DNA of 56,763 bases from Oscillospiraceae bacterium (lineage in GTDB: Bacteria > Bacillota > Clostridia > Oscillospirales > Oscillospiraceae). Location: NCBI GenBank assembly GCA_017461445.1, contig JAFTXW010000026.1, positions 1-56,763 on the forward strand, in the 5' to 3' direction. The position numbers were made by a program, and so were the translations under genes. The notes under the pieces are model-generated. The model was not told where the DNA came from. It made no database searches and was given only the letters and a program-made list of their open reading frames with translations. Below are positions 10,077-43,020 of this stretch, piece by piece; within the stretch, counting starts at the first letter, position 1, and every line of letters starts with the position of its first letter.

Positions 10077-10242
10077 ATACTACCTTTTTATTAGAAATCT
10101 TTAATTTCTAATAAAAAGGGCACCGCCTAACGGCATTGCCGATTTTGCTATTTTCGGAAAGAAAATAGCAAAATCCCGTCTCATAATGATCTTCATATAA
10201 AACTTCAATCCTACGGATTAAATTTTTTTTGAATATCAGTAT
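10077..10242 (-). repeat. Three-hairpin intergenic element, copy A
   Basis: 166 bp, minus orientation, ending in ATACT-type terminal sequences. Reading the minus strand: terminal ATACTGAT, a first hairpin around TTTAATCC/GGATTGAA, the conserved string TGAGACGGGATT, a second hairpin with a perfect 15-bp stem (GATTTTGCTATTTTC with GAAAATAGCAAAATC), GCCGTTAGGCGGTG, a third hairpin with a perfect 16-bp stem (CCTTTTTATTAGAAAT), and terminal GTAGTAT. It is clearly homologous to 12340-12507 and 42853-43020. It lies between the PTS terminator and a minus-strand terminator, outside any gene. Confidence 0.85.
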
Positions 10243-10284
10243 AAGAAGCGTATGCTCTGCCGCACAAATTCCTCACTCATAACA

Positions 10285-10312
10285 AAAAGGACGTGCGCAC
10301 GCACGTCCTTTT
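10285..10312 (-). terminator. Intrinsic terminator of the ddl-DUF1934 unit
   Basis: A 12-bp perfect inverted repeat with AAAAGGACGTGC (10285-10296) and GCACGTCCTTTT (10301-10312). On the minus strand it ends in TTTTT, 5 bp after the DUF1934 stop codon. Confidence 0.88.
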
Positions 10313-10316
10313 CTCT

Positions 10317-10739
10317 TCACTTTGCCCGGATATCCAGGTGGTAATCGATCACGCCGCCTTCGGTATTCTCGATGTCGATGTTGTACACCAAATCGATGAC
10401 ACCTCCGTCGGGTACGATGTCATAAAATACACTGGTGGCCTTCACAGTGATCATCAGCGCGCCGAAGGCCATCTGGTACAGGGAATCATGGGCCACACCC
10501 TCCTGGAAGACCATCTGGGAATTCAAGGTACCCTTCCGGTCCAGGATCACCTTTCCCGGCTCCACCCGGAAAGTGGTGGTAACGCCCGCCAGGCCCGTCA
10601 GCTCGCTCTCCTCATAGGAGATGTCCCAGCCGCCGTTCCGAAACTCCATGGTGCCCTCGGTCACCAGCTCGATGACCTCCGGCTCCTGTCCGGCATAGCT
10701 CTGGCGGCCCCGGATAGACAAGACGACCGTCTGCTTCAT
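10317..10739 (-). CDS. DUF1934 (YwiB-like) beta-barrel protein
   Basis: This 140-residue protein has no signal peptide or membrane segment. It matches the DUF1934/YwiB family, a small calycin-like beta-barrel of unknown function, by its alternating beta-strand pattern with SIRGRQSY near the start and a C-terminal VIDLVYNIDIEN followed by DYHLDIRAK. The ATG at 10739 overlaps the ddl stop codon as TGATG, so it is translationally coupled to ddl; an in-frame ATG two codons upstream (10745) is possible. Family members are often near cell-wall or arginyl-tRNA synthetase genes. No biochemical role can be assigned from the sequence. Confidence 0.8.
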   Translation of the reverse strand: MKQTVVLSIRGRQSYAGQEPEVIELVTEGTMEFRNGGWDISYEESELTGLAGVTTTFRVEPGKVILDRKGTLNSQMVFQEGVAHDSLYQMAFGALMITVKATSVFYDIVPDGGVIDLVYNIDIENTEGGVIDYHLDIRAK

Positions 10740-11806
10740 CAGCACGCCTCCAGTGCCAGCTCCAGCAGCTTGTCGATCAGCTGGCTGTAGGGAATGCCGC
10801 TGGCGGCAAACAGCTTGGGGTACATGGAAATGGAGGTAAAGCCAGGCAGGGTGTTGATCTCGTTGAACACCACCCGGTTCTCCTCGTAGGTCACGAAGAA
10901 ATCCACACGGCTCAGGCCTTGGCAGCCGATGGAACTGTAGACCTTCACGGCAGCATCCCGAACCACCTCCGCCACATCCTCGGGGATTCGCGCAGGGATA
11001 TAGGCAGTGGAAGTATCGGTGACGTATTTTGCGTCGTAGTCATAGAAATCCGCGCCGGAGTCAATCTCGCCGCAGAGGGAGGCCACGGGGTTGTCGTTAC
11101 CCATAACGGCCACTTCCACCTCCCGGCCGTGGATGAACTCCTCCACCAGGATCTTACTGTCATATCGGGCGGCAGCCAGCAGTGCCGCGTGGAGAGTCTG
11201 ACGGTCGGAAGCCTTGGAAACGCCCACTGAGGAGCCGGTGCCTGCGGGTTTGACGAACATGGGATAGCGGAACCGCAGCTCCAGGGAATCCAGCGTGTTT
11301 TCCATGTGGTTATCCAGCTCGCCGCGGCGCACCAGCTGCCAGGCAGCCTGGGGCACGCCTGCGTGATCCACCACCAGCTTGGTCAGGGTCTTGTCCATGG
11401 CCACGGCGGAAGCGGCAACATGGGGGCCAACGTAAGGAATGCCCGCCATCTGCAGGAGGCCCTGCATGGCACCGTCCTCGCCGTTTTCGCCGTGGAGGAC
11501 CGGGAATACCACATCGATCCGTTCCCGAACCACGCAGTCGCCCTCGAAGCTCAAAAGGCCCTGCCCCCGGACAGGAGAGATGGCGGCACGGCGGTTATTG
11601 GGATGGGACTTCCATTCGCCGGTGGGCAGCTTGGCATAGTCCTTTCCGGTGTAAAGGATCCAGTCGCCCTCTTTGGTAATACCAACAGGGAACACATTAT
11701 ACTTACTGTGATCGATATTGTTCAGAACGGATTCTGCAGAGCGCAGGGACACCTCATGCTCCGGGCTCATGCCGCCGAACAGGATACAAACGCTGAGTTT
11801 TTTCAA
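10739..11806 (-). CDS. ddl: D-alanine--D-alanine ligase
   Basis: The 355-residue cytoplasmic ATP-grasp enzyme joins two D-alanines to make the dipeptide that MurF adds to the peptidoglycan precursor. Features seen: N-terminal VCILFGGMSPEHEVSLRSA, the VFPVLHGENGEDGAMQGLL block, MFVKPAGTGSSVGVSK (ATP-binding), EEFIHGREVEVAVMGN, and the metal-binding FNEINTLPGFTS near the C-terminus. The omega-loop has FYDYDAKY with the tyrosine of D-Ala-D-Ala ligases, against a vancomycin-type D-Ala-D-Lac enzyme. The start is TTG at 11806, the only start in frame with the conserved N-terminus, with GAGG about 9 nt upstream. murC lies 700 bp away on the same strand. Confidence 0.95.
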   Translation of the reverse strand: MKKLSVCILFGGMSPEHEVSLRSAESVLNNIDHSKYNVFPVGITKEGDWILYTGKDYAKLPTGEWKSHPNNRRAAISPVRGQGLLSFEGDCVVRERIDVVFPVLHGENGEDGAMQGLLQMAGIPYVGPHVAASAVAMDKTLTKLVVDHAGVPQAAWQLVRRGELDNHMENTLDSLELRFRYPMFVKPAGTGSSVGVSKASDRQTLHAALLAAARYDSKILVEEFIHGREVEVAVMGNDNPVASLCGEIDSGADFYDYDAKYVTDTSTAYIPARIPEDVAEVVRDAAVKVYSSIGCQGLSRVDFFVTYEENRVVFNEINTLPGFTSISMYPKLFAASGIPYSQLIDKLLELALEAC

Positions 11807-11901
11807 ATCATCGCCTCATTTATAATTATTTCACAATTTCCATCTGGAAATTCGGTAAATCGGTGCTATAATAGGGGAAATGTATTTGCTGGAGGTTTAT
11901 C

Positions 11902-12294
11902 ATGCAGATCAATTTGACCGCAAAGGAATTCCGTCGCCTGCTGGACATGGTTTACATCGGCAACTGGGTATTAAACTCCACCCGGGGCGAGGACCGCTTC
12001 AAGGACTACGATGCCCTGGAAAGCAAGCTTTTTGCCCTGTCCCCCGCCCTGTCCGAGATCTGGAACGGAGAGATCGTCCCCTCCCGGGCTTTTTCCGAGG
12101 GCGGCATCCACGAGGCCATCGCTTATTACGAGGACAACGTGTTCTATGAGATCCTGGCCGAGGAGCTTTCCCGGCGGGATATGGACTATCCGGAGATCAC
12201 GGATGAAAACTACGACGAAATCGTAGGCCGGATGGACAAATATATGTCGGAATTCCAGCTGTCCGGCATCCAGAATCTGGTGCTGGAAGAGTAA
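11902..12294 (+). CDS. Conserved-looking protein of unknown function
   Basis: I do not recognise this 130-residue, acidic, mostly helical soluble protein. It has no signal peptide, cysteine motif or membrane segment. Its gene quality is good: TATAAT at 11867-11872, GGAGG at 11891-11895 seven bases before the ATG, and a strong terminator just after the stop. It is divergent from ddl and convergent with murC, but nothing in its sequence ties it to cell-wall synthesis. Visible landmarks are FRRLLDMVYIGNWVLNS near the N-terminus and a WNGEIVPSRAF segment in the middle. Confidence 0.8.
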   Translation: MQINLTAKEFRRLLDMVYIGNWVLNSTRGEDRFKDYDALESKLFALSPALSEIWNGEIVPSRAFSEGGIHEAIAYYEDNVFYEILAEELSRRDMDYPEITDENYDEIVGRMDKYMSEFQLSGIQNLVLEE

Positions 12295-12314
12295 CTGTAA
12301 ATCCTTTTAGAAAA

Positions 12315-12341
12315 TGTGCCGGTCGCCCGGCACATTTTTTT
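12315..12341 (+). terminator. Intrinsic terminator after the 11902 gene
   Basis: TGTGCCGG (12315-12322), loop TCG, CCGGCACA (12327-12334) and seven T residues. The left end of repeat copy B begins at the end of this T-run. Confidence 0.92.
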
Positions 12342-12507
12342 ACTGATATTCAATTAACAACTTTAATGCGAAGCATTGAAGTTGTTAATATGAAGATCAA
12401 TGTGAGACGGGATTCTGTTATTTTCCGGTTCGAAAATAACAGAATCGACAGCCCGTCAGGCGATGTCTTTCGATTTGAAATTATAAATTTCAAATTGAAA
12501 ATAGTAT
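12340..12507 (+). repeat. Three-hairpin intergenic element, copy B
   Basis: 168 bp, plus orientation. Left end TACTGATATTCA; first hairpin with TTAACAACTT/AAGTTGTTAA arms; conserved TGAGACGGGATT; second hairpin with a perfect 15-bp stem (GATTCTGTTATTTTC with GAAAATAACAGAATC); CCCGTCAGGCGATG; third hairpin CGATTTGAAATT/AATTTCAAATTG; right end TAGTAT. Relative to copy A, the second stem has two changed pairs in which both strands changed together. Its last base touches the murC stop codon (12507-12509). Confidence 0.85.
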
Positions 12508-13868
12508 TATTCGCTCAAAAGGGCCTCGCCCGCTCTAAAAATATCGCCCGCGCCCATAGTCAGGACGATGTCTCCCTCCCGAACGGTCTCCCGCAGAAAA
12601 TCGGTGACCTCAGGCAGAGCCTCGCAGAAAACGGCACCGGGGATCTGCTCCGCCAGATGAGCAGAGGAAATGCCAACGGTGTTACGTTCCCGGGCAGCGT
12701 AAATTTCTGCCAGAACCACCACATCAGGCTTCTTCAGCTCCCGGACGAAATCCTCAAACAGAGCCTTCGTGCGGCTGTAGGTATGGGGCTGGAAGGCCAG
12801 CACGATCCGCCGGCCGGGCATGGAAGCACGAACGGCACTGATGGTGGCTGCCAGCTCATCAGGATGGTGGGCGTAATCGTCATAGACATCCGCGCCCTGG
12901 AACGTACCCTTGAATTCCATCCGGCGTCCCGCGCCGTGGAAGGACTCCAGACCGTGGGAAACGGCTTCGCCAGGAATTCCCATCATCCAGGCGGCAGCAG
13001 CTGCTGCAAGACCGTTCAGGGCGTTATGACGGCCCAGAACACCCATGTCCAGGTGGCAGTAAAACTCACCATCACAGATCACGTCAAAGTGCCGCCAGTC
13101 GGGGCACATGTTGGCGGCATGGATGCGGTTGTGTTCTCCCATGCCGAAGGAGACATAGTCGATGCCTTCCATGGCCTGTACGGTATGGGGGTCGTCGCCG
13201 TTGGCGATGACGCCGCCGGTAGACAGTTCCGCGAACTTATGGAAGGACTTCTGCACATCCGCCAGATCCTTGAAATAATCCAGATGATCCGCCTCCACAT
13301 TCAGCACGACAGCCAGTGTGGGAAAGAAATTCAGGAAGGAATCGCAGTATTCGCAGCTTTCCAGCACGATGGTATCCCCATGGCCCACCCGGTGGCCCGC
13401 GTGAAGCAGGGGCAGGTAGCCGCCAATCATGACCGTGGGATCCAGGTCAGCCTCCATCAGAATATGGGTCATCATGGAGGTGGTAGTGGTCTTGCCATGG
13501 GTACCGGAAATGCAGATGGCATTTTTATAAGACTTCATGATCTCGCCCCAGGCCTGGGCACGCTCGAAAACGGGAATGCCCGCTGCCCGCGCGGCAGCGA
13601 TCTCCGGGTTATCATTGTGTGCAGCAGCGGTGCGGATGATACAGTCGGCACCCTGGATATTTTCCGCACGGTGGCCGATCTCCACATGAATTCCCTGCTC
13701 CATCAGCTCATCGGTAGACAGTGATGCGCTCATATCGGAGCCGGTGACAGTCATTCCCATGCCCTTCAGCACAAGGCCCAAAGGACGCATGGAAACGCCG
13801 CCGATGCCCACCAGATGCACATGACGGCCGGGAGTGATGTATTTGGCAATTTTCTTACTTTTAAACAT
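12507..13868 (-). CDS. murC: UDP-N-acetylmuramate--L-alanine ligase
   Basis: This cytoplasmic Mur ligase (453 residues) adds L-alanine to UDP-MurNAc, the first step of the stem peptide. Motifs: HLVGIGGVSM (N-terminal Rossmann domain), ATP loop CISGTHGKTTTTSM, NVEADHLDYF, GRHNALNGLAAAAAA (typical MurC GxHNxxN), YDDYAHHPDELAATI and VLAFQPHTYSRT in the C-terminal domain. I start it at ATG 13868 because GGGGGA lies 10-12 nt upstream and the protein then begins MFKSKKIAKYI as in the family; an in-frame ATG at 13904 would add 12 poorly conserved residues. Promoter at 13915-13943. Its 3' end abuts repeat copy B; I see no classical terminator there. Confidence 0.95.
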   Translation of the reverse strand: MFKSKKIAKYITPGRHVHLVGIGGVSMRPLGLVLKGMGMTVTGSDMSASLSTDELMEQGIHVEIGHRAENIQGADCIIRTAAAHNDNPEIAAARAAGIPVFERAQAWGEIMKSYKNAICISGTHGKTTTTSMMTHILMEADLDPTVMIGGYLPLLHAGHRVGHGDTIVLESCEYCDSFLNFFPTLAVVLNVEADHLDYFKDLADVQKSFHKFAELSTGGVIANGDDPHTVQAMEGIDYVSFGMGEHNRIHAANMCPDWRHFDVICDGEFYCHLDMGVLGRHNALNGLAAAAAAWMMGIPGEAVSHGLESFHGAGRRMEFKGTFQGADVYDDYAHHPDELAATISAVRASMPGRRIVLAFQPHTYSRTKALFEDFVRELKKPDVVVLAEIYAARERNTVGISSAHLAEQIPGAVFCEALPEVTDFLRETVREGDIVLTMGAGDIFRAGEALLSE

Positions 13869-13914
13869 ATATGTCAAATCCCCCGCAGGTTGAAATGTTT
13901 GCATAGCCTATGGC

Positions 13915-13943
13915 ATTATACATCATTCTTAAGGATTTTACAA
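13915..13943 (-). promoter_or_regulatory. Sigma-A promoter of murC
   Basis: On the minus strand TTGTAA (13943-13938), a 17-bp spacer and TATAAT (13920-13915), about 45 bp before the murC ATG. Confidence 0.75.
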
Positions 13944-14116
13944 CCACAAAAAATGGAAACCAATGATTTTTATGAACCTTTTTCGACATTATCTTACGCT
14001 CTTCCAATTTCTTACGTCCATTTGCACAGAAAACAGCCACAAGATTCGTTGATTATGCCATCCTTGCAGGAGGAACACCGGGCCGGAAAACCCGGCCACT
14101 ACGCGCTCTCCATACG

Positions 14117-14143
14117 AAAAAACGCCCACCCGCAGGTGAGCGT
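14117..14143 (-). terminator. Intrinsic terminator of the amino-acid ABC operon
   Basis: On the minus strand ACGCTCACC and GGTGGGCGT pair around a short loop, followed by TTTTTT (14122-14117). It lies 10 bp after the ATPase stop codon. Confidence 0.88.
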
Positions 14144-14152
14144 TTCTCCATA

Positions 14153-14893
14153 TTATGCCTTGCGGAAACGTGCCAGGAAATCCCGGGTCTCCTGCTTTTT
14201 CGGGTCGCCGAAAACCTCAGCCGGAGTACCCTCCTCGCAGATGATGCCCTCGTTCATGTAGACCACGCGGGTGCTGATATCCCGGGCGAAGGCCATCTCG
14301 TGGGTGACCACCAGCATGGTCATTCCTTCCTGTGCCAGGCTCTGCATGACCGCAAGAACCTCTCCCACCATTTCGGGGTCCAGCGCGGAGGTAGGCTCGT
14401 CGAACAGCAGTACCTCCGGGTCCATAGCCAGAGCCCGGGCGATGGCCACGCGCTGCTTCTGGCCGCCGGAGATCTGCCGGGGCTTTGCGTTGATGTAGGG
14501 GGCCATGCCCACCTTTTCCAGATAGAACATGGCATGGCGGCGGGCTTCCTCCCGATTCCGCTTCAGTACCTTGACCTGTCCCACGATGCAGTTTTCCAGC
14601 ACCGTCATATTGCTGAACAGGTTGAAGGACTGGAACACCATGCCCACCCGGGAACGGTATGCAGGAGCGTTGAAGCCCCGGCGCACCACGTTTTCCCCGT
14701 GATACAGGATCTCACCGGAGGTGGGGTTTTCCAGCAGATTGATGCACCGCAGCAGCGTGGATTTACCGGAGCCGGAGGCACCGATGATGGAGGTCACATC
14801 GCCCTTGCTGACGGTAAAATCAATGTCCCGGAGAACCTCATGGGTACCGAAGGACTTGGACAGGTGGTTCACCTGTAAGATCATCTCTCCCAT
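14153..14893 (-). CDS. Amino-acid ABC importer, ATPase (lysine predicted)
   Basis: This 246-residue cytoplasmic ATPase is of the GlnQ/HisP/ArtP polar-amino-acid family. It has Walker [14 protein letters not shown], the Q-loop region [19 protein letters not shown], signature [15 protein letters not shown], Walker [20 protein letters not shown] and switch histidine [14 protein letters not shown] 14893 follows GGAGGAAGATAAC and lies 1 bp after the permease stop codon, so it is the last gene of a three-gene importer operon. The operon leader carries a lysine riboswitch (16850-17010), which makes lysine the likely substrate; the ATPase sequence alone does not show that. Confidence 0.94.
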
Positions 14894-14894
14894 G

Positions 14895-15770
14895 TTATCT
14901 TCCTCCTCTGTTGCGGCCGTGCTTCAGGCCCTGACGGGTACGCTCCCGGTATTCCTTGCTGCGCTCGTCAAAGGGCGTTCCCCGGTCGGGATGGCTGTAG
15001 GTGCCGGCGGTCATGGTCAGCTGATCCACCTGAACCAGCTCGTAGCTGTCGCTGCCGTCCATCCACTTCTCCACCCACCGCAGGACAAAAGAGGCGATCA
15101 GGGTCATGGTCAGATAACCGATCATCTCAATGGCAGCGGAGGGGAAATACATGTTGTTGACACCGGTGATGTAGCGGTGGAAGGCAAAAAACTCCGTAAA
15201 GCTGATGATGAACATGACGGAGGTATCCTTCACGTTGATGATGAAGTTGTTGCCGATCTGGGGCATGATATTGCGCAGGGCCTGGGGCAGGATCACGTTC
15301 ATCATGGTCTGGACGTGGGTCATGCCGATGGCCTTGGCACCCTCGGTCTGGCCGGGATCGATAGAAATGATGCCGCCACGGACAGATTCAGCCATATACG
15401 CGCCGGTGTTGATGGAAACGATCAGGATCGCCGCCGCCCAGACGCTGGAGAAGCGCATAGTGTTATCGGTAAAATAGGGCAGGCCGTAGAAAATAAACAC
15501 AGCCTGAAGCACCATGGGAGTGCCCCGGAAGACCTCCACATAGACCCGGACAATGCCGCGGATCAGCTTCAGTACAACGCGCTTAAACAGGGAGTCATTG
15601 GGGGAATAGGGAATGGTATTGAGGATGCCGCAGACCAGGCCGATGATGCAGCCAATGACAGTGGCAACCAGTGCCAGGATCAGCGTATTCTTCACACCAT
15701 CCAGATACATCCCGGAATAGTTGCTCCAAAGCTTGACCATATCCTGGCCAAGCTCGATCAGCTTATCCAT
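14895..15770 (-). CDS. Amino-acid ABC importer, permease (lysine predicted)
   Basis: The 291-residue membrane protein has the HisM/GlnP-type inner-membrane fold: several hydrophobic helices, the N-terminal [19 protein letters not shown] and the cytoplasmic ATPase-contact loop [20 protein letters not shown]. An unusually long charged C-terminal tail (about 50 residues) follows the last helix. I start it at ATG 15770 with AAAGGAG 9-12 nt upstream; the longer frame from a TTG at 15788 would place that ribosome binding site inside the gene. It is separated from the substrate-binding gene by a strong hairpin (15799-15829) and directly followed by the ATPase. Confidence 0.93.
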
Positions 15771-15798
15771 TGGATCAGCTCCTTTCAAATAACAGGGA

Positions 15799-15829
15799 AG
15801 TCATCCGGCTTTGGGAAAGCCGGATGACT
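15799..15829 (-). other. 14-bp hairpin between binding-protein and permease genes
   Basis: AGTCATCCGGCTTT (15799-15812) pairs perfectly with its complement (15816-15829) around a 3-nt loop. No good T-tract follows on the minus strand. Such hairpins commonly stabilise the upstream message so that the binding protein is made in excess over the membrane components. Confidence 0.75.
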
Positions 15830-15844
15830 ATGGTTCCATATCTC

Positions 15845-16744
15845 TTAGATTTCGGGCTGAACGGCAATAGCCTCGTCCATCAGGGCGTTGAAATCGTCAA
15901 CGGTCATGGTGGACAGAACACTGTCAATGGCTTCCTTCAGCTGGGTGTTTCCCTTCAGGACAGAGATGCCAATATTGACATTTTCGGCCCGCTCCTCTTC
16001 GGTGGCAAACTGGAAGTCACCCTCAGTGCCGGAGAAGTCCAGGATCACCAGGCTGTCGTCCTTGGCAACGGCACCCATGGCGGTAGGCATATCGGTGCAG
16101 ACGAAATCCACAGTGCCGGTCTGCAGGGACATGATCATAGCGGGAGCGGTGTCCGCGGGGGCCAGCAGCTCCGCGCCTTCGATCTGAGGCAGGCAGGAGT
16201 CATACCAGATGGTGCCGGACTGGGCGGTGCACTTGCCGCCGGCCAGATCCTGGATGGAGGTGGCAGAAGCATAGGGGCTGTCCTTGGTGGTAACGCAGAC
16301 GATGGTGGCGTAGTAGTAGGGGCCTGCCATGTCCACCTCAGCCATGCGGTCAGCGGTCATGGACTGGCCAGCGATGTTGGCATCCATGGTCTTAGACTGA
16401 ACGGCGGGGGTCAGGGAATCCCATGCGCTGGATACGATCTCCAGCTCCCAGCCGTTGGCCTCGCAGATCTTCTTGGCGATCATAACGTCGTAGCCGTTGG
16501 CGTAGGCACCGGGAACATTGGAGATGGGCACAGCACCGTTGGAATCATCGGTCTGGGTCCAGTTGTAGGGAGCGTAAGCGCACTCCATGCCAACGGTGAA
16601 CACACCATCCTCCAGGCCGGGGATGTCGGAAACGGCGGCGGAAGCATCATTGGGGGTGTCCGTGTTGGAGCTGCCGCAGGCGGTCATGGTCAGCAGCATG
16701 GCAAGTGCCAGCACCAGGGTCATCAGTCGGGTCATTCTTCTCAT
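15845..16744 (-). CDS. Amino-acid ABC importer, substrate-binding lipoprotein (lysine predicted)
   Basis: This 299-residue extracellular solute-binding protein (family 3, SBP_bac_3) is membrane-anchored through the lipobox LTMTAC after an N-terminal signal. It shows FTVGMECAYAPYNWTQ at the start of lobe 1, GYDVMIAKKIC and, further on, TIVCVTTKDSPY and the end of lobe 2. It is the first gene of the operon, 291 bp downstream of the promoter at 17036-17064; the leader between holds a lysine riboswitch and a terminator. Start ATG 16744 with AAAGGAACTG upstream. Lysine as ligand rests on the riboswitch; arginine or ornithine remain possible. Confidence 0.93.
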   Translation of the reverse strand: MRRMTRLMTLVLALAMLLTMTACGSSNTDTPNDASAAVSDIPGLEDGVFTVGMECAYAPYNWTQTDDSNGAVPISNVPGAYANGYDVMIAKKICEANGWELEIVSSAWDSLTPAVQSKTMDANIAGQSMTADRMAEVDMAGPYYYATIVCVTTKDSPYASATSIQDLAGGKCTAQSGTIWYDSCLPQIEGAELLAPADTAPAMIMSLQTGTVDFVCTDMPTAMGAVAKDDSLVILDFSGTEGDFQFATEEERAENVNIGISVLKGNTQLKEAIDSVLSTMTVDDFNALMDEAIAVQPEI

Positions 16745-16782
16745 TTTCTTTCAGTTCCTTTCTATTCTTTCGAATCATAAAC

Positions 16783-16821
16783 AAAAAACCGCGAATCCCG
16801 GAGAAACTCCAACATCCACGG
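16783..16821 (-). terminator. Riboswitch-linked terminator before the lysine importer
   Basis: On the minus strand CCGTGGAT and ATTCGCGG pair (with G-U pairs), enclosing an inner GGAG/CTCC stem, followed by TTTTTT (16788-16783). It lies between the lysine aptamer and the first start codon, so it is the expected expression platform: lysine bound, terminator forms, importer off. Confidence 0.8.
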
Positions 16822-16849
16822 CAAAAGGCAAACATACCCGCACATAGAA

Positions 16850-17010
16850 TGATAGCACTCCACACAATGTGACAGTCCGGCGGATATTTTCCGACGGCCC
16901 AGCCCCCACGCCCGGGCGGCGATGGAAGGCTTCGGCGGTTTGCCCCTTCCCTCCGCCGGAAGCCCGTTCCCAGCAGCGGAGGTACTCATGCGCACCGCAC
17001 CTCTATCGAT
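16850..17010 (-). ncRNA. Lysine riboswitch (L-box) aptamer
   Basis: Read on the minus strand, the leader shows the conserved lysine-aptamer blocks in order: GATAGAGGTGCGG, GAGTA, a GGGGCAAACCGCCGAAGCC block, GGGCTGG with a complementary partner, and ACTGTCA followed by GTGGAGTGCTATC. P1 forms from GATAG at the 5' end (17007-17003) and CTATC at the 3' end (16854-16850). It lies just downstream of the promoter at 17036-17064 and upstream of the terminator at 16783-16821, in front of the three importer genes. Confidence 0.92.
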
Positions 17011-17035
17011 CCACAGTTATTTTGTTATAGGCCAA

Positions 17036-17064
17036 AGTATAGCACCAGAATGTGCCGTTGTCAA
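17036..17064 (-). promoter_or_regulatory. Sigma-A promoter of the lysine importer operon
   Basis: On the minus strand TTGACA (17064-17059), a 17-bp spacer and TATACT (17041-17036). Transcription would start about 15-20 bases before the riboswitch P1 stem. Confidence 0.88.
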
Positions 17065-17132
17065 CAGGCAATTCGTGAAATTACGCAATTTTTCTTCAGA
17101 TTTTTGTGTATATGCTACAGTGACATTTGTTT

Positions 17133-17849: not shown

Positions 17850-17888
17850 CAATGGAATATGGTCTTCGCTCCCGTATTGCCGGAATCA

Positions 17889-35555: not shown

Positions 35556-35560
35556 GGAAA

Positions 35561-35568: not shown

Positions 35569-35576
35569 AAAATAAA

Positions 35577-35592: not shown

Positions 35593-35698
35593 AATACTTT
35601 AGCACAACACGCACATATATGCAAGAGGTACACGGAAAATTTACAATTTACCGCAGGCACCAATTTAACGGATATCTTTATAAGAATCAATTTAGAAA

Positions 35699-35727
35699 TT
35701 GCTTTTTTATATCGGTCATGGTACTAT
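35699..35727 (+). promoter_or_regulatory. Probable nagA promoter
   Basis: TTGCTT (35699-35704), a 17-bp spacer and TACTAT (35722-35727), 35 bp before the nagA ATG. Confidence 0.55.
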
Positions 35728-35762
35728 TATGGTAGATATTTTATAAAAAAGGAGATTCGATT

Positions 35763-36893
35763 ATGTATTACAAAAACGCCCGCATTTTCACCTCCGATTT
35801 TCATTTTCACACCGGTGCCTTTGAAGTGAAGGACGGTCTCTTTGGCGAAGTCCTGCCCGAAGCCGTCCCTGCCGATGCCATCGACCTGCAGGGTGCCACC
35901 GTCATCCCCGGCCTGGTGGAAGTCCACAGCCACGGCAACTCCGGCGCAGACTTCTCCGACGGCGACTACGAAGGCCTGAAGAAGATGGCCGCCTACTATG
36001 CCCAGTGCGGTGTCACCTCCTTTGCCCCCGCCTCCATGACCCTGCCCTACGATGTGCTGGAGAAGGCCTTTGCCACCGCGAAGCAGCTGGCAGAGGAAGC
36101 CCCCGCAGGCCATTCCCGGCTCATGGGCATCCAGATGGAGGGCCCCTACTTCTCCTACAAGAAGCGCGGTGCCCAGAACCCCGACTACCTGAAGGAGCCT
36201 GACTTCGAGGGCTTCAAGGCCCTTTACGAGGGCTGCAGCGGTCTGGTGCGCATCGTGGACATCGCTCCCGAGCTGCCCGGCGCAGCGGAATTCGTGGAGA
36301 AGGCCAAGGAGCTGTGCACCGTATCCATCGCCCACACCGATTCCGATTACGACCATGCCAAGGCCACCATTGACGCAGGTGTCACTCACCTGACCCACTT
36401 GTACAACGCCATGCCCGGCATCCACCACCGGAATCCCGGTGTCATCCCCGCCGCTGTAGAGAATCCTAACGTCCAGGCAGAGATCATCTGCGATGGCTAC
36501 CATATCCATCCTTCCTCCGTCCGTCTGGCCTTTACCATGTTCCGTGACCGGATGATCCTGGTCTCTGACTCCGGCCGCTGCGCCGGCCAGCCTGAAGGCT
36601 ACCAGTTCGATCTGGGTGGTCAGATGGCAGAACTTCGCGGTGGTGTTGCCAAACTGGTAGGCACCGAGACCATTGCCTGCTCCGCCGCCAACCTGTGGCA
36701 GTGCCTGGTGAACACCATCTCCTGGAATGTCCCCGAGGAGGAGGCCGTCCGTGCCGCCACCTATAACCCCGCCAAGGCCATCGGCGCGGATGCCAAAATC
36801 GGCACCATCGAATCCGGCAAGCTGGCAGACTTCATCATCACCGATTCCAACTACACCACCAAGCGCGTCTTCCTCGGCGGTGTTGAACTCTAA
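35763..36893 (+). CDS. nagA: N-acetylglucosamine-6-phosphate deacetylase
   Basis: The 376-residue amidohydrolase removes acetate from GlcNAc-6-phosphate to give glucosamine-6-phosphate, feeding GlcNAc into glycolysis or wall synthesis. It has VEVHSHGNSGADF (HxH region of the metal site), GIQMEGPYFSYKKRGAQ (metal-ligand glutamate), SIAHTDSDYDHAKATIDAGV, HLYNAMPGIHHRNPG, CDGYHIHP and LVSDSGRC (catalytic aspartate). Length is normal. ATG 35763 follows AAAGGAG. It stands alone here, without nagB, but fits the PTS at 7.9-9.9 kb if that imports GlcNAc. Confidence 0.94.
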   Translation: MYYKNARIFTSDFHFHTGAFEVKDGLFGEVLPEAVPADAIDLQGATVIPGLVEVHSHGNSGADFSDGDYEGLKKMAAYYAQCGVTSFAPASMTLPYDVLEKAFATAKQLAEEAPAGHSRLMGIQMEGPYFSYKKRGAQNPDYLKEPDFEGFKALYEGCSGLVRIVDIAPELPGAAEFVEKAKELCTVSIAHTDSDYDHAKATIDAGVTHLTHLYNAMPGIHHRNPGVIPAAVENPNVQAEIICDGYHIHPSSVRLAFTMFRDRMILVSDSGRCAGQPEGYQFDLGGQMAELRGGVAKLVGTETIACSAANLWQCLVNTISWNVPEEEAVRAATYNPAKAIGADAKIGTIESGKLADFIITDSNYTTKRVFLGGVEL

Positions 36894-36902
36894 TCTTCTT
36901 TG

Positions 36903-37042
36903 TAGGGGAGGGTCTTGACCCTCCCGCCAAAAATCCGAATGGATTTTGGGGATTTCCCGAAGGGAAATAAATCAGGATTATCGCCTGTGACGATGTAATT
37001 TTGCTTTCGCAAAATTACCGGGAGGGTCAAGACCCTCCCCTA
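36903..37042. repeat. 140-bp palindromic multi-hairpin element
   Basis: The two 24-bp ends are perfect inverted repeats of each other, and each end is also a hairpin (GGGAGGGTC/GACCCTCCC at 36906-36925 and 37020-37039). Between them lie three more hairpins: CCAAAAATCC with GGATTTTGG, TTTCCC with GGGAAA, and GTAATTTTGC with GCAAAATTAC. It fills the gap between nagA and the MATE gene. The layout resembles a small non-autonomous (MITE-like) element. No target duplication is evident by eye. Confidence 0.8.
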
Positions 37043-37064
37043 CTATGTTCATTCTGAGGTTCCC

Positions 37065-38447
37065 ATGTTCAAACGTTACATCGGCGACAGGGCGTTTTAC
37101 CGCCATGTCCTTGGGGTAGCCGTGCCCATCATCATTCAAAACGGCATTTCCAACTTTGTCTCCCTGCTGGACAACATCATGGTGGGTCAGGTGGGCACCG
37201 TTCCCATGAGCGGCGTTTCCATCGTCAACGGCCTGCTTTTCGTGTTCAATCTGTGCGTCTTCGGTGCCAGCTCCGGTGCGGGCATCTTCACCGCCCAGTT
37301 CCACGGCTCCCGGGATGACGAGGGTATCCGCCACACCTTCCGCTTTAAAGCACTGGTGTGCTCCGCTATCGCCCTGATTGGCATCGCCATTTTCACCTTC
37401 GGCGGAAAGCTGCTGATTGGCCTTTACCTTACCGGTGAAGGCGATGCCGCCACCGCCGCCGGTGCCATGGCGTATGGCCTTTCCTACCTTTCCGTGATGG
37501 TCTGGGGCTTTCTGCCCTTTGCACTGACCAACACCTATTCCAGCACCCTCCGGGAAACCGGTGAGACCTTCGTCCCTATGCTGGCAGGCATTGCCGCCGT
37601 GCTGGTAAATCTGGTGCTGAATTACATCCTGATCTTCGGACACTTCGGTGCCCCCGCCATGGGTGTGGAGGGTGCGGCACTGGCTACCGTCATTTCCCGG
37701 TATGTGGAGCTTGCCATCGTGGCTGGCTGGACTCACATGCACCGGGAGAAGAATCCCTTTATTGTGGGTGTCTACCGTTCGGCATACATTCCCGGAAAGC
37801 TGCTGGGCTCCATCACCAAAAAGGGCATGCCCCTTCTTGTAAACGAATTTCTCTGGGCCAGCGGCATGGCGATCCTGAACCAGTGCTACTCCACCTGTGG
37901 TCTGGACGTAGTGCCTGCCATGAATATTTCCAGCACCATTTACAATCTGGCCAGCGTGGTGTATCTGTCCATGGGCAACGCCGTCGGCATCATCATGGGA
38001 CAGATGCTGGGGGCGGGCAACACGGAGGAGCAGGTACGGGACTCCAACCGGAAGCTCATCACCGTTTCTGTCGTTTCCGGTCTGCTTTTCGGCGGCTTCA
38101 TGGCACTGATCTCAGGCCTGTTCCCTCGGATCTACAATACCACCGAAGAAGTGCGGCAGCTGGCCTCTATGCTGATCTGCATCAACGCGGTGATGATGCC
38201 CTTTAATTCCTACACCAACGCCACCTATTTTACCCTCCGCTCCGGCGGTCAGACACTGGTCACCTTCCTGTTCGACAGCTGCTTCGTGTGGGCCTGCTGC
38301 GTACCCCTGGCCTTCTGCCTGAGCCGGTTTACAGACCTCTCCATCCTGCCCCTCTTCGCCATCTGCCAGGGAACCGACCTGGTCAAATGCGCACTGGGTG
38401 CCTTCATGCTGAAACAAGGCAAATGGATCCAAAACCTGACCACATAA
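37065..38447 (+). CDS. MATE-family efflux transporter
   Basis: This 460-residue polytopic membrane protein has about twelve helices in two similar halves. MATE landmarks are AVPIIIQNGISNFVSLLDNIMVGQVG at the N-terminus, GAGIFTAQFHG, FLWASGMAILNQCYS, and an internal second-half repeat around GNAVGIIMGQMLGAG. Members export cationic drugs or metabolites using sodium or protons. ATG 37065 has only a weak TGAGG upstream. The palindromic element lies directly before it, so transcription may come from nagA or from within that element. Substrate unknown. Confidence 0.93.
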   Translation: MFKRYIGDRAFYRHVLGVAVPIIIQNGISNFVSLLDNIMVGQVGTVPMSGVSIVNGLLFVFNLCVFGASSGAGIFTAQFHGSRDDEGIRHTFRFKALVCSAIALIGIAIFTFGGKLLIGLYLTGEGDAATAAGAMAYGLSYLSVMVWGFLPFALTNTYSSTLRETGETFVPMLAGIAAVLVNLVLNYILIFGHFGAPAMGVEGAALATVISRYVELAIVAGWTHMHREKNPFIVGVYRSAYIPGKLLGSITKKGMPLLVNEFLWASGMAILNQCYSTCGLDVVPAMNISSTIYNLASVVYLSMGNAVGIIMGQMLGAGNTEEQVRDSNRKLITVSVVSGLLFGGFMALISGLFPRIYNTTEEVRQLASMLICINAVMMPFNSYTNATYFTLRSGGQTLVTFLFDSCFVWACCVPLAFCLSRFTDLSILPLFAICQGTDLVKCALGAFMLKQGKWIQNLTT

Positions 38448-38448
38448 G

Positions 38449-38484
38449 AAAACCAGCTCCCTAAGTCGGGGAGCTGGTTTTTTA
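38449..38484 (+). terminator. Intrinsic terminator of the MATE gene
   Basis: AACCAGCTCC (38451-38460) pairs with GGAGCTGGTT, followed by TTTTATT. It starts 4 bp after the stop codon. Confidence 0.9.
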
Positions 38485-38495
38485 TTGGGATAGAT

Positions 38496-39584
38496 TTATT
38501 TTATGGTCGAACTGTTATTAAGCACCAACGTGCTGTACAGAAACAGCACATCCTGTCCCTTGAATTCCACAAACTGTTCCAGAAGGTCGATCTGGATATA
38601 GCGGATATCCAACAGGGTCACCTTTGCGTAGTCCTGCAGGAGCAGAGGGACGACAGAGCTTCCGAAGGAATCCCGGAAAACGATCAGCTCCCGGTCGGTT
38701 GCGGCGTTGGGATTCTCGATGGTCAGCAGGCTCCGGGCACCGGAGAGGAACACGTCGTAAAGATCTTTGCTTTCCAGCTTCTCCAGGTCGTAAACGGCTG
38801 TTGTCTTGCCGCTTTCATAGTCGTAGACCGTGCAGGCTTTCAGGAGCTCGCTTTCCAGAAGATATATCGTGTCCGGCTCCATGGGCAGTGCCGCCTGACC
38901 GTAATACACACCGTAGAAGGGCCGCTCCAATTGGGTGAGGGTGTAGTCCTCTGCCTCGGGAGCGGTGACGCCCAGGGCATTGCAGAGCTTCCTTGCGGCA
39001 TCCAGCAGGTTCTCCTGCCGCCAGTGAGTGTCGGTGCGGTAGTAATCCTCCCCGCTAAGGACATCCGTAAGATCAATATGGGTGGCCCAGGGCATTCCTT
39101 CCCGGAAAGCCGTGAACATGGCTTCATAGTCCAGGGCCAGATGGCTGCTGCCTTCCGCCAAATAGTATCCCTTGTCAGGAACGATGGCCATATAGACCTT
39201 AGAACCCGTCAGATACTTGTCGTAAAGATAGTTGAACCGTTCCAACGCATGGTTCACAGAGCTTTCGTTCAGAGGATATTCCTGCTTCACCGCGCTGCCG
39301 CCCGCGATATAAATACCATTGTTGTCGCTCTGCCCCAAAACATAGTAGTGGAACAGGGATTTTATCTTGCGGAAAGTGTCCCGAAGGGGGAACTGATCCA
39401 GGGAATAGTCCTCAAAATCCGCCATGAAGCTGCCGTCCAGCAGGCTTTCCACGCTGATTTCAGGCATCTGCACCAGCGGACGCCGCTCCGCGTCGGAGAC
39501 TTCCTGATCGGGCAGCACCAGCTGCGATACCGCCAGCAGCCCCCAAACCGCCGCCAGAAGGATGGCGCATACTTTTTTCGTCAT
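38496..39584 (-). CDS. DHHW-family (AlgJ/AlgX-like) secreted protein
   Basis: The 362-residue protein has an N-terminal signal/anchor (VCAILLAAVWGLLAVSQLVL) and an SGNH-hydrolase-like DHHW domain, with YRTDTHWRQEN (the TDxHW motif) and ELIVFRDSFGSSVVPLL (the serine block). In alginate and other systems such proteins transfer O-acetyl groups to extracellular polysaccharides together with an MBOAT channel, which is exactly the gene just upstream. The start is ATG 39584, with GAGGAGG 8 nt upstream; a GTG at 39593 is in frame but sits in the ribosome binding site. Last gene of the mntP-to-DHHW series. Confidence 0.85.
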   Translation of the reverse strand: MTKKVCAILLAAVWGLLAVSQLVLPDQEVSDAERRPLVQMPEISVESLLDGSFMADFEDYSLDQFPLRDTFRKIKSLFHYYVLGQSDNNGIYIAGGSAVKQEYPLNESSVNHALERFNYLYDKYLTGSKVYMAIVPDKGYYLAEGSSHLALDYEAMFTAFREGMPWATHIDLTDVLSGEDYYRTDTHWRQENLLDAARKLCNALGVTAPEAEDYTLTQLERPFYGVYYGQAALPMEPDTIYLLESELLKACTVYDYESGKTTAVYDLEKLESKDLYDVFLSGARSLLTIENPNAATDRELIVFRDSFGSSVVPLLLQDYAKVTLLDIRYIQIDLLEQFVEFKGQDVLFLYSTLVLNNSSTIK

Positions 39585-39597
39585 CTTCGCCACCTCC

Positions 39598-40983
39598 TCA
39601 GAAACGGAAATACAGGAACGGGCTGAAGGAACCGTCCACCAGATAGGCCGTGCAAACCAGCAGCAGCCCCAGCATCAGAGCCAGCTCCAACACACCGCAC
39701 AACTTCGTCTGTTCGAGCTTGCGTGCGGCATCCCGCACCACAGGCGCGGAACCCACAAAGCCCGCCGCAAACAGCGGGGCATAACTTCGCAGATAGTACA
39801 GCGCAGGGGCGGAGGTCAGGGGCAGATTTCCAAAGCCAAACATACAGGCAAGGTTGCTGCCCGCCTGGGCCATACTCTCTGCGTTGAACAGCACGAAGCT
39901 CAGCACCACGATCAGCAGCACATAGCCATGCCGCAGAATATTCGGCAGCTTTTGCAATGCAGGTACCCATTTTTCGATCAGCAGCACCGCCGCGAACAGC
40001 AGGCCCCAGAGCACAAAATTCCATGCCGCCCCGTGCCATAATCCCGTCAGCATCCAGACCGCCAGAATGTTGCACACCCAGCGGCCGCGGCTCACCCGGT
40101 TGCCCCCCAGGGGGATATAGACATAGTCCCGGAACCAGCTGCCAAGGCTCATATGCCACCGCCGCCAGAATTCGGTTATGCTTTTGGAAAGGTAGGGATA
40201 ATTGAAATTCTCAATAAAACGGAACCCAAACACCCGGCCCAGACCAATTGCCATATCGGAATAGCCGGAAAAATCGAAGTAAATATTCAGAGTAAAGGCA
40301 ACAGCGTACATCCAGTAGAACAGGACGGATTTTTCGCCACTCTCCCGGAACAGCTTCATCAGCAGCGCGAAGTTGTCTGCCAGAATGACCTTCTTCCCCA
40401 GGCCCAGCAGGAACCGGCGTATGCCCACAGCGAAGTCCTCCCAGCTGTGGGTGCGCCTGTCCAGTTCCCGAGCCACGTCCACATACCGGACGATGGGGCC
40501 TGCGATCAGCTGGGGAAACAGTGCCACATAGGCACCGAAGGAGATGAGATTTTTCTGAGCGGGCACATTGTCCCGGTACACGTCGATGGTGTAGCTGAGG
40601 CACTGAAAGGTATAAAAGCTGATGCCCACAGGCAGAGCCAGCCGCAGCAGCGGCACACTCAGCCCCGCAACGGCATTGAAGCTGCCGATAAAGAAATCAG
40701 CATACTTGAAAAGCCCCAGCAAGGCAATACTGATAACCACCGAAACTGCCAGCCAGAATTTCTTCCACCGCTGCTCCCCTGTCCTGCCAATGGCAAGGCC
40801 GCAGAAATAGAACAGCAGAACGGTGAACACCATAAGAAACAGCAGCTTCGGCTCCCCCCAGCCGTAAAAAAATAGACTGGACAGGAGCAAAACTCCGTTT
40901 TTCAACTTCCAGGGCACCAGAAAATACACAATTAGCACCGCCGGGAGAAAGTAATATAAAAATGGAATGCTGGAAAAGAGCAT
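39598..40983 (-). CDS. MBOAT-family O-acyltransferase (AlgI/DltB-like)
   Basis: This 461-residue membrane-bound O-acyltransferase has about eleven helices. Markers: LLSSLFFYGWGEPKLL, LPVGISFYTFQCLSYTIDVYR, FWRRWHMSLGSWFRDYVYIPLGG and LTGLWHGAAWNFVLWG, holding the catalytic histidine. It passes acetyl groups across the membrane for polymer O-acetylation. ATG 40983 follows GAGGAG by 6 nt. The DHHW gene follows after 13 bp. A terminator-like hairpin (41007-41032) separates it from the DUF4358 gene, so the MBOAT/DHHW pair may be expressed at a lower level or from its own start. Confidence 0.93.
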   Translation of the reverse strand: MLFSSIPFLYYFLPAVLIVYFLVPWKLKNGVLLLSSLFFYGWGEPKLLFLMVFTVLLFYFCGLAIGRTGEQRWKKFWLAVSVVISIALLGLFKYADFFIGSFNAVAGLSVPLLRLALPVGISFYTFQCLSYTIDVYRDNVPAQKNLISFGAYVALFPQLIAGPIVRYVDVARELDRRTHSWEDFAVGIRRFLLGLGKKVILADNFALLMKLFRESGEKSVLFYWMYAVAFTLNIYFDFSGYSDMAIGLGRVFGFRFIENFNYPYLSKSITEFWRRWHMSLGSWFRDYVYIPLGGNRVSRGRWVCNILAVWMLTGLWHGAAWNFVLWGLLFAAVLLIEKWVPALQKLPNILRHGYVLLIVVLSFVLFNAESMAQAGSNLACMFGFGNLPLTSAPALYYLRSYAPLFAAGFVGSAPVVRDAARKLEQTKLCGVLELALMLGLLLVCTAYLVDGSFSPFLYFRF

Positions 40984-41006
40984 AGGTAACTCCTCATTAT
41001 TGAAAA

Positions 41007-41032
41007 ATGGCAGCGACAAACGCCGCTGCCAT
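41007..41032 (-). terminator. Terminator-like hairpin between DUF4358 and MBOAT genes
   Basis: ATGGCAGCG and CGCTGCCAT pair, followed on the minus strand by TTTTTC. It starts 8 bp after the DUF4358 stop codon. No promoter for the MBOAT gene is obvious after it, so partial read-through is likely. Confidence 0.8.
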
Positions 41033-41040
41033 CTTACTTT

Positions 41041-41604
41041 TTAGATTACGAAATCCAGTTCCGCACCGGCAACCTTCTGGAAGGCATCCACGAAGGACTG
41101 GGCGGTCATGCCGTTAGCGTTATCCACCATGATCAGCATCACCACATCGCCGTAACCGGCAACCAGCAGATCGTTTGCTTCCACGCAGATCCACTTACGG
41201 GTATCGATACCGGCCTTCATGGCCTCGGCAACAGCCAGTGCATCCTCACCGGCGTTGACACGAACCATGACCATGGAATAGGCAATGGAACCCATCATGG
41301 GCTCGTACACGGCGGCTTCACTGATCTGGTCGGCAGAATCCAGGCCGGTGTTATACTTGATCGCCCACAGGCCATCCTCGCTGGTGTCAGTCAGGTCAAC
41401 AGGGATCACACCGCCCATAAACTCCACAGGCTCCTCGGTGATGACTTGGTTCAGCAGCTCCTCAAGGGTACCCTCCAGAACGGCAGCGGCCTCGGTGGTG
41501 GGAGGAACAGTGGTCTCGGTGGTAGGCTCGGCATTGGACGCGCCGCAGGCGGCCAGGGTCAGGGTCATGGCCAGGGCCAGAATGACAGATACAAACTTCT
41601 TCAT
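41041..41604 (-). CDS. DUF4358 lipoprotein
   Basis: The 187-residue lipoprotein has the signal MKKFVSVILALAMTLTLAAC, a Thr/Glu/Pro linker and a DUF4358 domain (LEELLNQVITEEPVEF, then AVYEPMMGSIAYSMVMVRV and AVAEAMKAGIDTRKWICVEA). The function of the family is unknown; it commonly sits beside MBOAT and DHHW genes in clostridia, as here. ATG 41604 follows AAGGAG. It lies 4 bp after the VanZ-like gene. Confidence 0.83.
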   Translation of the reverse strand: MKKFVSVILALAMTLTLAACGASNAEPTTETTVPPTTEAAAVLEGTLEELLNQVITEEPVEFMGGVIPVDLTDTSEDGLWAIKYNTGLDSADQISEAAVYEPMMGSIAYSMVMVRVNAGEDALAVAEAMKAGIDTRKWICVEANDLLVAGYGDVVMLIMVDNANGMTAQSFVDAFQKVAGAELDFVI

Positions 41605-41608
41605 TTTG

Positions 41609-42052
41609 TTACTCCTTATTGTGTTTTCGTTTCAGATAATCATACCCAAAATACAGCAGCGTGATACCGGTCAGCACTCCGCAGCTGTCGATTCCCACAT
41701 CGATCAGGCTTGGCCCCCGGTCCGGGACAAAAACCTGAATGGTCTCATCGATGCAGGCCGCCAGGATACCTGCCAGCAGTGCCCGGGATCGGGGCTTTGC
41801 CAGCATACCGGCGATCCACCCCAGGCACATACCCAGGGCAGCAAATTCCGTGAAATGGGCGAGCTTCCGCAGAAGTCCCCCGCCTCCGCCGGCGGAAGGC
41901 GTTCCGGCCAGCAGATGGGATAAAAGCTCCTTGACCCAGTCACTGATGGCTCCCGAAAGCTCTCCGGGGAGCAGGGAGTTTCCCCAGATGAAGACCAGGT
42001 TCAGTGCCAGCAGCGTATAGGCCAGCCGCAGCCGTTTTTCCGTACGGATCAT
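41609..42052 (-). CDS. VanZ-like membrane protein
   Basis: This 147-residue protein has four helices and the VanZ signature: RKLAHFTEFAALGMCLG, DETIQVFVPDRGPSLIDVGID and CGVLTG. VanZ gives low-level teicoplanin resistance by an unknown envelope effect; most chromosomal family members have no defined role. There is no vanHAX cluster here and the ligase at 10.7 kb is an ordinary Ddl. The start ATG overlaps the mntP stop by 4 bp (ATGA). Confidence 0.88.
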   Translation of the reverse strand: MIRTEKRLRLAYTLLALNLVFIWGNSLLPGELSGAISDWVKELLSHLLAGTPSAGGGGGLLRKLAHFTEFAALGMCLGWIAGMLAKPRSRALLAGILAACIDETIQVFVPDRGPSLIDVGIDSCGVLTGITLLYFGYDYLKRKHNKE

Positions 42053-42630
42053 GATAAAATCCCCAGGTGCTCCAGGAGGATCTTCAGGCCCAGCAGGATC
42101 AAAATGACACCGCCTGCCAGCTGCGCCTTCTTCTCAAAGCGGCTGCCGAAGACATTGCCCACCTTGACACCGATGGTGGACATAACGCAGGTGAAGGCAC
42201 CGATCAGCAGGACAGCCATAACGATGTTCACATTACCAGCCATAGCCAGGGAAATACCAACAGCCAGAGCGTCAATAGACGTAGCCACCGCCATGACGAA
42301 CATAGTCTTTACAGACAGATCCGCGTTCTGCTCCTCGCAGCCGCAGCCCTCCTCCTCTTTTTCGAGGGCTTCCTTCAGCATATTGACGCCAATGATGCCC
42401 AGCAGGATGAAGGCCACCCAGTGGTCAACGGCCTGAATCGCTTCAGCAAACAGCGTGCCCAGGAAGAAGCCGATCAGGGGCATCAATGCCTGGAAGCCGC
42501 CGAACCAAACACCGCAGGTCAGGCCCGCCTTTAAGGTTGCCTTTTTCATAGCCAGTCCCTTGCAGATGGAGACCGCAAAGGCATCCATACTGACACCCAG
42601 TGCCAGCAGCAGTAATTCACTCAATCCCAT
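42049..42630 (-). CDS. mntP: Manganese efflux pump MntP
   Basis: The 193-residue pump has six helices in two repeated halves, each with the metal-binding GVSMDAFAVSI / ATSIDALAVGIS motif of the MntP family, plus a charged loop EKEEEGCGCEEQN between them. It exports Mn2+ when the metal is in excess. ATG 42630 follows GGAGG and gives MGLSELLLLALG; the longer open frame runs into the riboswitch. It is preceded by a yybP-ykoY motif, the usual Mn2+ sensor for this gene. VanZ-like, DUF4358 and acetylation genes follow in the same direction. Confidence 0.94.
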   Translation of the reverse strand: MGLSELLLLALGVSMDAFAVSICKGLAMKKATLKAGLTCGVWFGGFQALMPLIGFFLGTLFAEAIQAVDHWVAFILLGIIGVNMLKEALEKEEEGCGCEEQNADLSVKTMFVMAVATSIDALAVGISLAMAGNVNIVMAVLLIGAFTCVMSTIGVKVGNVFGSRFEKKAQLAGGVILILLGLKILLEHLGILS

Positions 42631-42689
42631 AAAAAAATACCTCCGTACTGATCGCAGGTCAGCACAGAAGGCATAGAGAGACTGAGCCG

Positions 42690-42781
42690 GCCTGTCAAGT
42701 CTCGTCATTTCAGGCTGAACCGGGGTTTCCCCAGTATGTCGATCCAGTCCCGCTCATCGCGCCGACTACTCCCTCTTCACG
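42690..42781 (-). ncRNA. yybP-ykoY (manganese) riboswitch
   Basis: On the minus strand the leader contains GAGGGAGTAG (one metal-binding loop), GATCGACATAC and, at the 3' side, GAAATGACGAGACTT (the second loop), with a P1 of GTGAAG and CTTGAC. The order and spacing match the yybP-ykoY aptamer. It begins a few bases after the promoter TATAAT (42786-42791) and precedes mntP by about 60 bases. No strong terminator is seen between aptamer and ATG; the ribosome binding site GGAGGT could pair with an upstream ACCT, so translational control is possible. Confidence 0.85.
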
Positions 42782-42785
42782 GCGC

Positions 42786-42814
42786 ATTATAACAAAAAAT
42801 CCCCGGTAAGTCAA
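42786..42814 (-). promoter_or_regulatory. mntP promoter, overlapping a terminator
   Basis: On the minus strand TTGACT (42814-42809), a 17-bp spacer and TATAAT (42791-42786). The -35 box lies in the loop and stem of the terminator at 42796-42830, and the terminator's T-tract is part of the spacer. Confidence 0.85.
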
Positions 42815-42830
42815 GGCTTACCGGGGATTG
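42796..42830 (-). terminator. Terminator of the cyuA-like/azlC/azlD unit
   Basis: CCCCGGTAAG and CTTACCGGGG form a 10-bp stem with a 6-nt loop, followed on the minus strand by ATTTTTTG. It lies about 190 bp after azlD, beyond repeat copy C, and overlaps the mntP promoter. Confidence 0.88.
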
Positions 42831-42852
42831 GATACAGTATTTTAACATTTTC

Positions 42853-43020
42853 ATACTGATTCTCAATTAAACCTTTAATTTGCAAGAATTGAAGGTTTTG
42901 ATATGAGAATCATATGAGACGGGATTTTACTATTTTCTTTCCGAAAATAGCAAAATCGGCAATGCCGTCAGGCAGTGCACTTTTTATTAGAAATGAAAGA
43001 TTTCTAATAAAAAGTAGTAT
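42853..43020 (+). repeat. Three-hairpin intergenic element, copy C
   Basis: 168 bp, plus orientation, ending in ATACTGAT and AGTAGTAT. First hairpin 42858-42911 with outer stem GATTCTCA/TGAGAATC and inner AACCTTTAATT/AATTGAAGGTT; conserved TGAGACGGGATT; second hairpin GATTTTACTATTTTC with GAAAATAGCAAAATC (one mismatch); GCCGTCAGGCAGTG; third hairpin ACTTTTTATTAGAAAT, a perfect 16-bp stem. It matches copy A at most positions. Its last base is the first base of the azlD stop triplet (43020-43022). Confidence 0.88.

Follow-up and report, generated by a model that had tools for sequence, protein, structure and literature searches.

A short non-autonomous transposon family of one gut bacterial genus, with covarying hairpins probably kept as DNA

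The window analysed here is a whole contig of 56,763 nucleotides from a draft genome of an Oscillospiraceae bacterium (GenBank assembly GCA_017461445.1, contig JAFTXW010000026.1; the genome comprises 2.66 Mb in 61 contigs). It carries three copies, A, B and C, of an element of about 165 bp that folds into hairpins. The element is a non-autonomous DNA transposon resembling miniature inverted-repeat transposable elements (MITEs) and is too short to hold a transposase gene. Its copies form a family, duplicate a TNA target and covary at paired positions, and one insertion site is found empty in related loci. On balance we think that they represent a new transposon family whose hairpins are kept by selection on the mobile copies, probably through folded DNA.

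Family, ends and target sites

A covariance model built from 14 copies in the window's own genome matched at least 28 places there, a lower bound because 28 is the number of candidates scored. Copies also occur in related genomes: of 101 genomes examined from the same genus, 26 gave matches, the own genome included. An order-wide search of 295 genomes matched the own genome only and gave no match in other genera, under strict filters that could lose weak copies. The element has thus been seen so far in one genus of gut bacteria. BLAST alone detected it in 7 of 60 genomes, again counting the own, and located 16 full-length places in the own genome (two of them with the same flanks as places on other contigs) together with many partial ones. 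Two contig pairs there, C42/C52 (identical over 3168 bases) and C24/C43, share the element plus its flanks. These pairs are probably an assembly artefact, and they inflate the own-genome copy counts. A short exact core pattern matched 20 stretches, all in metagenome-assembled genomes titled Oscillospiraceae, uncultured Clostridia or uncultured bacterium, many of them from the gut of roe deer, water deer, goat or sheep. Plasmid and phage records gave no match to one copy used as query (L002), and two viral contigs matched a short pattern but not the covariance model.

After 6 duplicate loci were dropped, the collection held 116 non-redundant copies of 119-212 bp. Clustering at 91% identity yielded nine clusters of at least three copies. 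The four printed members of a ten-copy cluster all come from one genome (G099), which suggests recent activity there. The sequence-only reading of the window knew of no description of the element. In agreement, no Rfam match at the gathering score overlaps the three window copies, and no published account turned up in a literature search that was in part poorly targeted. Copy C alone had 8 sub-threshold Rfam matches at E values up to 1 (best 0.008), all to microRNA, small nucleolar RNA or HgcG models and far under the cut-offs.

The element begins with TACT and ends with AGTA. Its terminal inverted repeats, ATACT/AGTAT, are paired in 96.5% of the cells of helix 1 and are imperfect beyond. In 100 of the 116 copies the same base precedes ATACT and follows AGTAT, against 34% expected, and the whole flanking triplet is the same on both sides in 89. 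Among copies with intact ends the triplet is repeated in 88 of 97 and is then always TNA (TTA 45, TGA 18, TCA 18, TAA 7). The insertion-site preference is wider than TNA, about YTNARA. When the joined flanks of 14 sites were compared with the 101 genomes, the site of copy L018 was found uninterrupted, with no gap at the junction, in 14 of 29 aligned loci; 10 of these carry a single TGA and 4 carry CGA. The L018 insertion breaks an 88-codon frame between two open reading frames (ORFs), which we take to resemble glutamine synthetase and adenylosuccinate synthetase. The site of L024 has one similar locus with a single TAA. The suggestion that the element could be a MITE is thus borne out by its many copies, TNA duplications, empty site and subfamilies.

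Covarying hairpins and the molecule that folds

Copy C is predicted to fold at -63.8 kcal/mol (z -9.6 against shuffles) and its complement at -59.0 kcal/mol (z -9.6). The consensus structures of the family alignment and of the riboswitch control below came from RNAalifold, in which GU counts as a pair. Across 103 of the 116 copies, 97.1% of 6526 cells in 64 pairs are paired, compared with 84.2% after shuffling; the omission of 13 mostly decayed, truncated or insert-bearing copies biases this percentage upward. Changes on both sides occur in 43 of the 64 pairs and amount to 812 cells, against 222 in shuffled and 42-84 in slid controls, and in all five covariation measures the alignment lies above every one of 500 shuffles and above the slid controls. 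Because this alignment had been fitted to the fold, the counts were repeated on a structure-blind MAFFT alignment, where 90.6% of cells are paired and 586 are changed on both sides (58-157 when slid). The proposal that the fold rather than the sequence is kept therefore holds across the family, with covariation far above both kinds of control. Between the first two hairpins lies an unpaired linker, ATGAGACG, each column of which (78-85) is at least 95% conserved.

Covariation is usually read as a sign of RNA structure. Where selection maintains a fold in RNA, G.U is tolerated on the transcribed strand and A.C is not. In the element the two are equal, with a GT:AC ratio of 72:75 cells (60 and 55 inferred events) when a mostly T.G column pair (28/51) is left out, and 148:75 with it. 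As an RNA control we used the lysine riboswitch in the window (16845-17013, minus strand) with its relatives, 28 sequences from the same genus. Here GT:AC is 123:21 without two mostly-GU pairs and 165:21 with them, and the difference from the element is significant (p 2e-11). The comparison does not support an RNA role of the fold. Since decay after landing would blur such counts, subfamily consensuses were also taken. In the nine consensuses 563 of 567 pairs are Watson-Crick, one is A.C and three are other; G.U is absent outside the fixed T.G position.

The branches on which compensation falls point in the same direction. Parsimony reconstruction on a FastTree tree places 91 double and 34 single changes on internal branches, and 73 and 153 on terminal branches. 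On terminal branches shorter than 0.02 there are no double and 14 single changes; at lengths of 0.02-0.04 the double:single ratio is 16:3 on internal and 4:31 on terminal branches. Three segments analysed on their own trees agree (internal vs terminal 18:13 vs 16:56, 26:14 vs 15:55 and 32:4 vs 11:30). Double changes thus lie mostly on internal and single changes mostly on terminal branches, suggesting that pairing is maintained in lineages that go on jumping and less well, or no longer, in copies that have landed. The loss of pairing in landed copies counts against a function for the host at the individual sites. The fold is probably kept as DNA, for mobility.

We propose that a transposase acting in trans would mobilise the element and insert it at TNA with a 3-bp stagger. 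The four hairpins around the unpaired linker would be maintained by selection on copies that are still transposing, and copies would decay as if neutral once landed. Folded or cruciform DNA would most likely take part in transposition itself, in recognition, synapsis or excision. A more specific version is doubtful at present: the transposition machinery may read the shape of the folded DNA, with the four hairpins, the conserved mismatches and the single-stranded linker as its signal. Source copies could then change in sequence as long as the DNA retained its shape, even though integration makes a 3-bp TNA duplication. We know of no described MITE family that combines shape reading of folded DNA, conserved mismatches and TNA duplication.

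Alternatives weighed against folded mobile DNA

The sequence-only reading had also offered a structured transcript or an mRNA 3'-end or stability element. If the element were transcribed, the RNA fold could be selected either for transposition or for such a role, and the strong fold and its covariation, together with T.G and A.G positions fixed within the helices, would fit this. We nevertheless regard this as unlikely, given the equal GT:AC counts compared with the riboswitch, the absence of free G.U from the consensuses and the lack of compensation in young copies. Tetraloops of the GNRA type were considered as RNA evidence and gave a mixed result: position 3 of the GNNA loops is C in 48 of 70 cases in the small hairpin H2b, which is not GNRA, and a purine in 23 of 40 cases in hairpin H1.

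Gene context does not favour an mRNA element either. In 107 classified copies (crude ORF calls) the right side faces a gene 3' end in 60 and a 5' end in 47, the left side gives the same 60:47, and 30 copies lie between convergent, 60 between co-directional and 17 between divergent genes. The contact of the right ends with the stop codons of murC and azlD is real, but a general orientation of right ends towards gene 3' ends is not borne out across the family. Of 84 copies usable for a stop-codon test, 40 lie inside a crude ORF call, 4 are unclear and 40 are clean intergenic. At the clean sites, stop codons were hit 9 times by right-facing ends (7.2 expected) and 4 times by left-facing ends (2.6 expected; p 0.24 each), where expectation takes the TNA sites of each gap weighted by target preference. 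With unweighted TNA sites the right-facing count of 9 exceeds the expected 4.4 (p 0.018), and the weighted test is partly circular because the weights derive from the same insertions. Since TAA and TGA are themselves TNA, the choice of target accounts for most of the stop-codon contact, and an element of stop codons or gene 3' ends was rejected.

Pairing might also persist with no function of the fold, if template switching or mismatch repair copied one arm onto the other and created compensatory pairs in one step. Double changes show no transition excess (83:81, against 115:63 for single changes), which is nearer to one-step copying and far from what two steps taken independently would give (p 1e-13 for branches shorter than 0.08). 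They also fall below the one-step expectation (p 0.02-0.03), and they are few on terminal branches. Furthermore, the purine-purine mismatch of H2b (AG 74, GA 22, AA 3, GG 2 and TA 2 in 103 copies) and the T.G pair of H1 persist, although blind copying would erase both. We therefore favour selection and consider arm copying improbable.

The element might instead move as a folded single strand whose shape is recognised by a protein, as is known for the ends of IS200/IS605 elements and for integron attC sites. Watson-Crick hairpins, a near-invariant unpaired linker and strand-polar mismatches (T.G and A.G on the plus strand) would suit such a mechanism. The partial search described below gave no candidate enzyme, and the TNA duplication with inverted ends argues for staggered joining to a double-stranded target. 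This route appears very unlikely.

Several observations weigh against folded mobile DNA as we propose it. On internal branches GT slightly exceeds AC (13 to 6); these wobbles are few, and an RNA component is possible. By events, helix 5 leans to GT (GT:AC 16:5) and helix 4 to AC (8:20). The T.G pair of H1, which 75 of 103 copies have as a fixed feature, and the purines at position 3 of the H1 loops belong here as well. The parsimony counts are perhaps inflated by recombination among copies. The TNA duplication is formally equal to a 1-bp duplication at an obligatory T_A, and four copies with TTA on the left and TTG on the right fit either a 3-bp or a 1-bp duplication plus mutation. Several relatives have no insert at the site of L010, where a small indel nevertheless sets them apart.

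Finally, a partial search found no transposase with the element's ends. Matches to PF01609 (3 of 9 genomes), PF13340 (3 of 24) and PF13586 (6 of 101) were obtained, and the loci examined have no TACT ends around the gene. Patterns resembling the terminal inverted repeats were sought in 10 genomes, and 49 regions were examined, 47 of them pattern places and 2 transposase loci, leaving out places at contig ends and some others; in none of them is a transposase gene enclosed by TACT...AGTA ends with flanking TNA. In L278 two TACT ends lie 4 kb from each other; this pair was rejected as an autonomous element because it encloses mostly unrelated ORFs and a broken IS5-like remnant, and its triplets are unequal. 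A lone IS5-like transposase in the own genome (L177, G000:C59) is split across two ORFs and has an imperfect inverted repeat of the GGGTCTATCTGAAAAC type (13/16), unlike the element's ends. L173 (500-1822) has the element's ends on either side of a PLP-enzyme-like gene that by eye resembles methionine gamma-lyase; the gene adjoins a 41-bp palindrome having the same ends.

The wobble and branch patterns point to DNA and mobility despite the strong covariation. They suggest a simple test for motif searches that would separate RNA elements from folded mobile DNA, using GT/AC counts, internal and terminal branches, and subfamily consensuses. The many aligned variants of the element could help to find what a transposase reads in folded DNA.

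Copies in the window and variant copies

The three window copies are present where the sequence-only reading placed them. They span 172 aligned columns with a mean column identity of 88%, and covariance-model scores are 158-181 bits. The window holds six other matches with E values no higher than 1, at 19-51 bits; five overlap or abut the copies, and one (19 bits) lies at 36937. The sequence-only reading is right about the second-stem changes that separate copies A and B, and about the third stem of B, which differs in sequence and remains paired. A fourth small hairpin of the GCC-GTCA-GGC type, listed there only as core, is also paired.

Full-length copy C (42854-43019, plus strand) is supported by its sequence, TACT...AGTA, own-genome BLAST and the covariance model. 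Its parts on the same strand are hairpin H1 (42858-42911, covariation in helices 2 and 3), the near-invariant unpaired linker (42912-42922, from alignment columns), hairpin H2 (42923-42957, helix 4), the small hairpin H2b, which has a purine-purine mismatch that is conserved and in many copies a GNNA loop (42959-42977, helix 5), and hairpin H3 (42978-43015, helix 6), each hairpin resting on the fold and covariation. In line with the family-wide TNA duplication, the target-site duplication is TCA, on the left at 42851-42853 and on the right at 43020-43022 (both plus strand). The right one is the stop codon (TGA on the minus strand) of azlD (43020-43328, minus), which contacts the copy.

Copy B, also full length by sequence and covariance model (12341-12506, plus), has TTT on its left (12338-12340, plus), one base off the TTA on its right (12507-12509, plus). 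The latter is the stop codon (TAA on the minus strand) of murC (12507-13904, minus), which contacts copy B. Both gene names are those of the sequence-only reading and presumably correct, being plausible by eye. Copy A, identified by the same evidence (10078-10241, minus), has unequal flanking triplets, TTA and TAA. Its H2-H3 part matches L002 at 96 of 99 columns, and its H1 part is slightly closer to L014 (60/71) than to L002 (56/72). Copy A may be a mosaic, as recombination between two copies would produce.

Seven copies (L157, L159, L162, L163, L167, L254 and L261) are internal-deletion derivatives, down to ~25 bp, that retain both ends; four of them (L157, L159, L254 and L261) also retain matching flanking triplets. 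In the genome G093, two copies (L114 and L115) are ~40 bp longer and another (L164) has extra sequence in the H2b region. A second repeat, starting TGCTTATCGAC, is inserted in or abuts copies in three genomes (G007, G013 and G015). It was located at L033:1060-1500, where it ends GATAAGCA with a ~10-bp A/T-rich duplication, and also in L263-L268, L271, L273 and L277.

Comparison with known systems

REP/REPIN sequences and integron attC sites are palindromic DNA whose fold matters, and in attC sites structure is kept more than sequence. The element resembles both in this respect and differs in duplicating its target. The IS1031 group has GA-type ends. Elements of this group (IS5 family) are described as preferring TNA targets and producing a 3-bp repeat on insertion (PMC12016507), which the element's 3-bp TNA duplication resembles. 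The ends also count against our proposal, since ISLrh, a member given there, has ends GAACCTG... and the element has TACT (PMC12016507).

Small dispersed repeats of Firmicutes offer a further comparison. bcr1-bcr3 are described as MITE-like repeats of the Bacillus cereus group (PMC3446304), and the entry for Bcr1 gives a length of 167 bp, 31 copies in B. anthracis and a secondary structure that is conserved (PMC2267715). The element is likewise a small, dispersed, MITE-like repeat of a Firmicute with a conserved fold; it differs in that its fold failed the RNA wobble test and its duplication is TNA. Correia/NEMIS, ERIC, RUP and RPE are bacterial MITEs of ~100-200 bp with inverted ends and extensive pairing; Correia, ERIC and RUP, and partly RPE, are listed with 5'-TA-3' termini, and the first three with a target duplication (PMC2229807). 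The present element differs from them by its four separate covarying hairpins and its TNA duplication. Its class, the MITE, is thus a known one, and its unusual property is a strong structural covariation that behaves like that of DNA selected for mobility.

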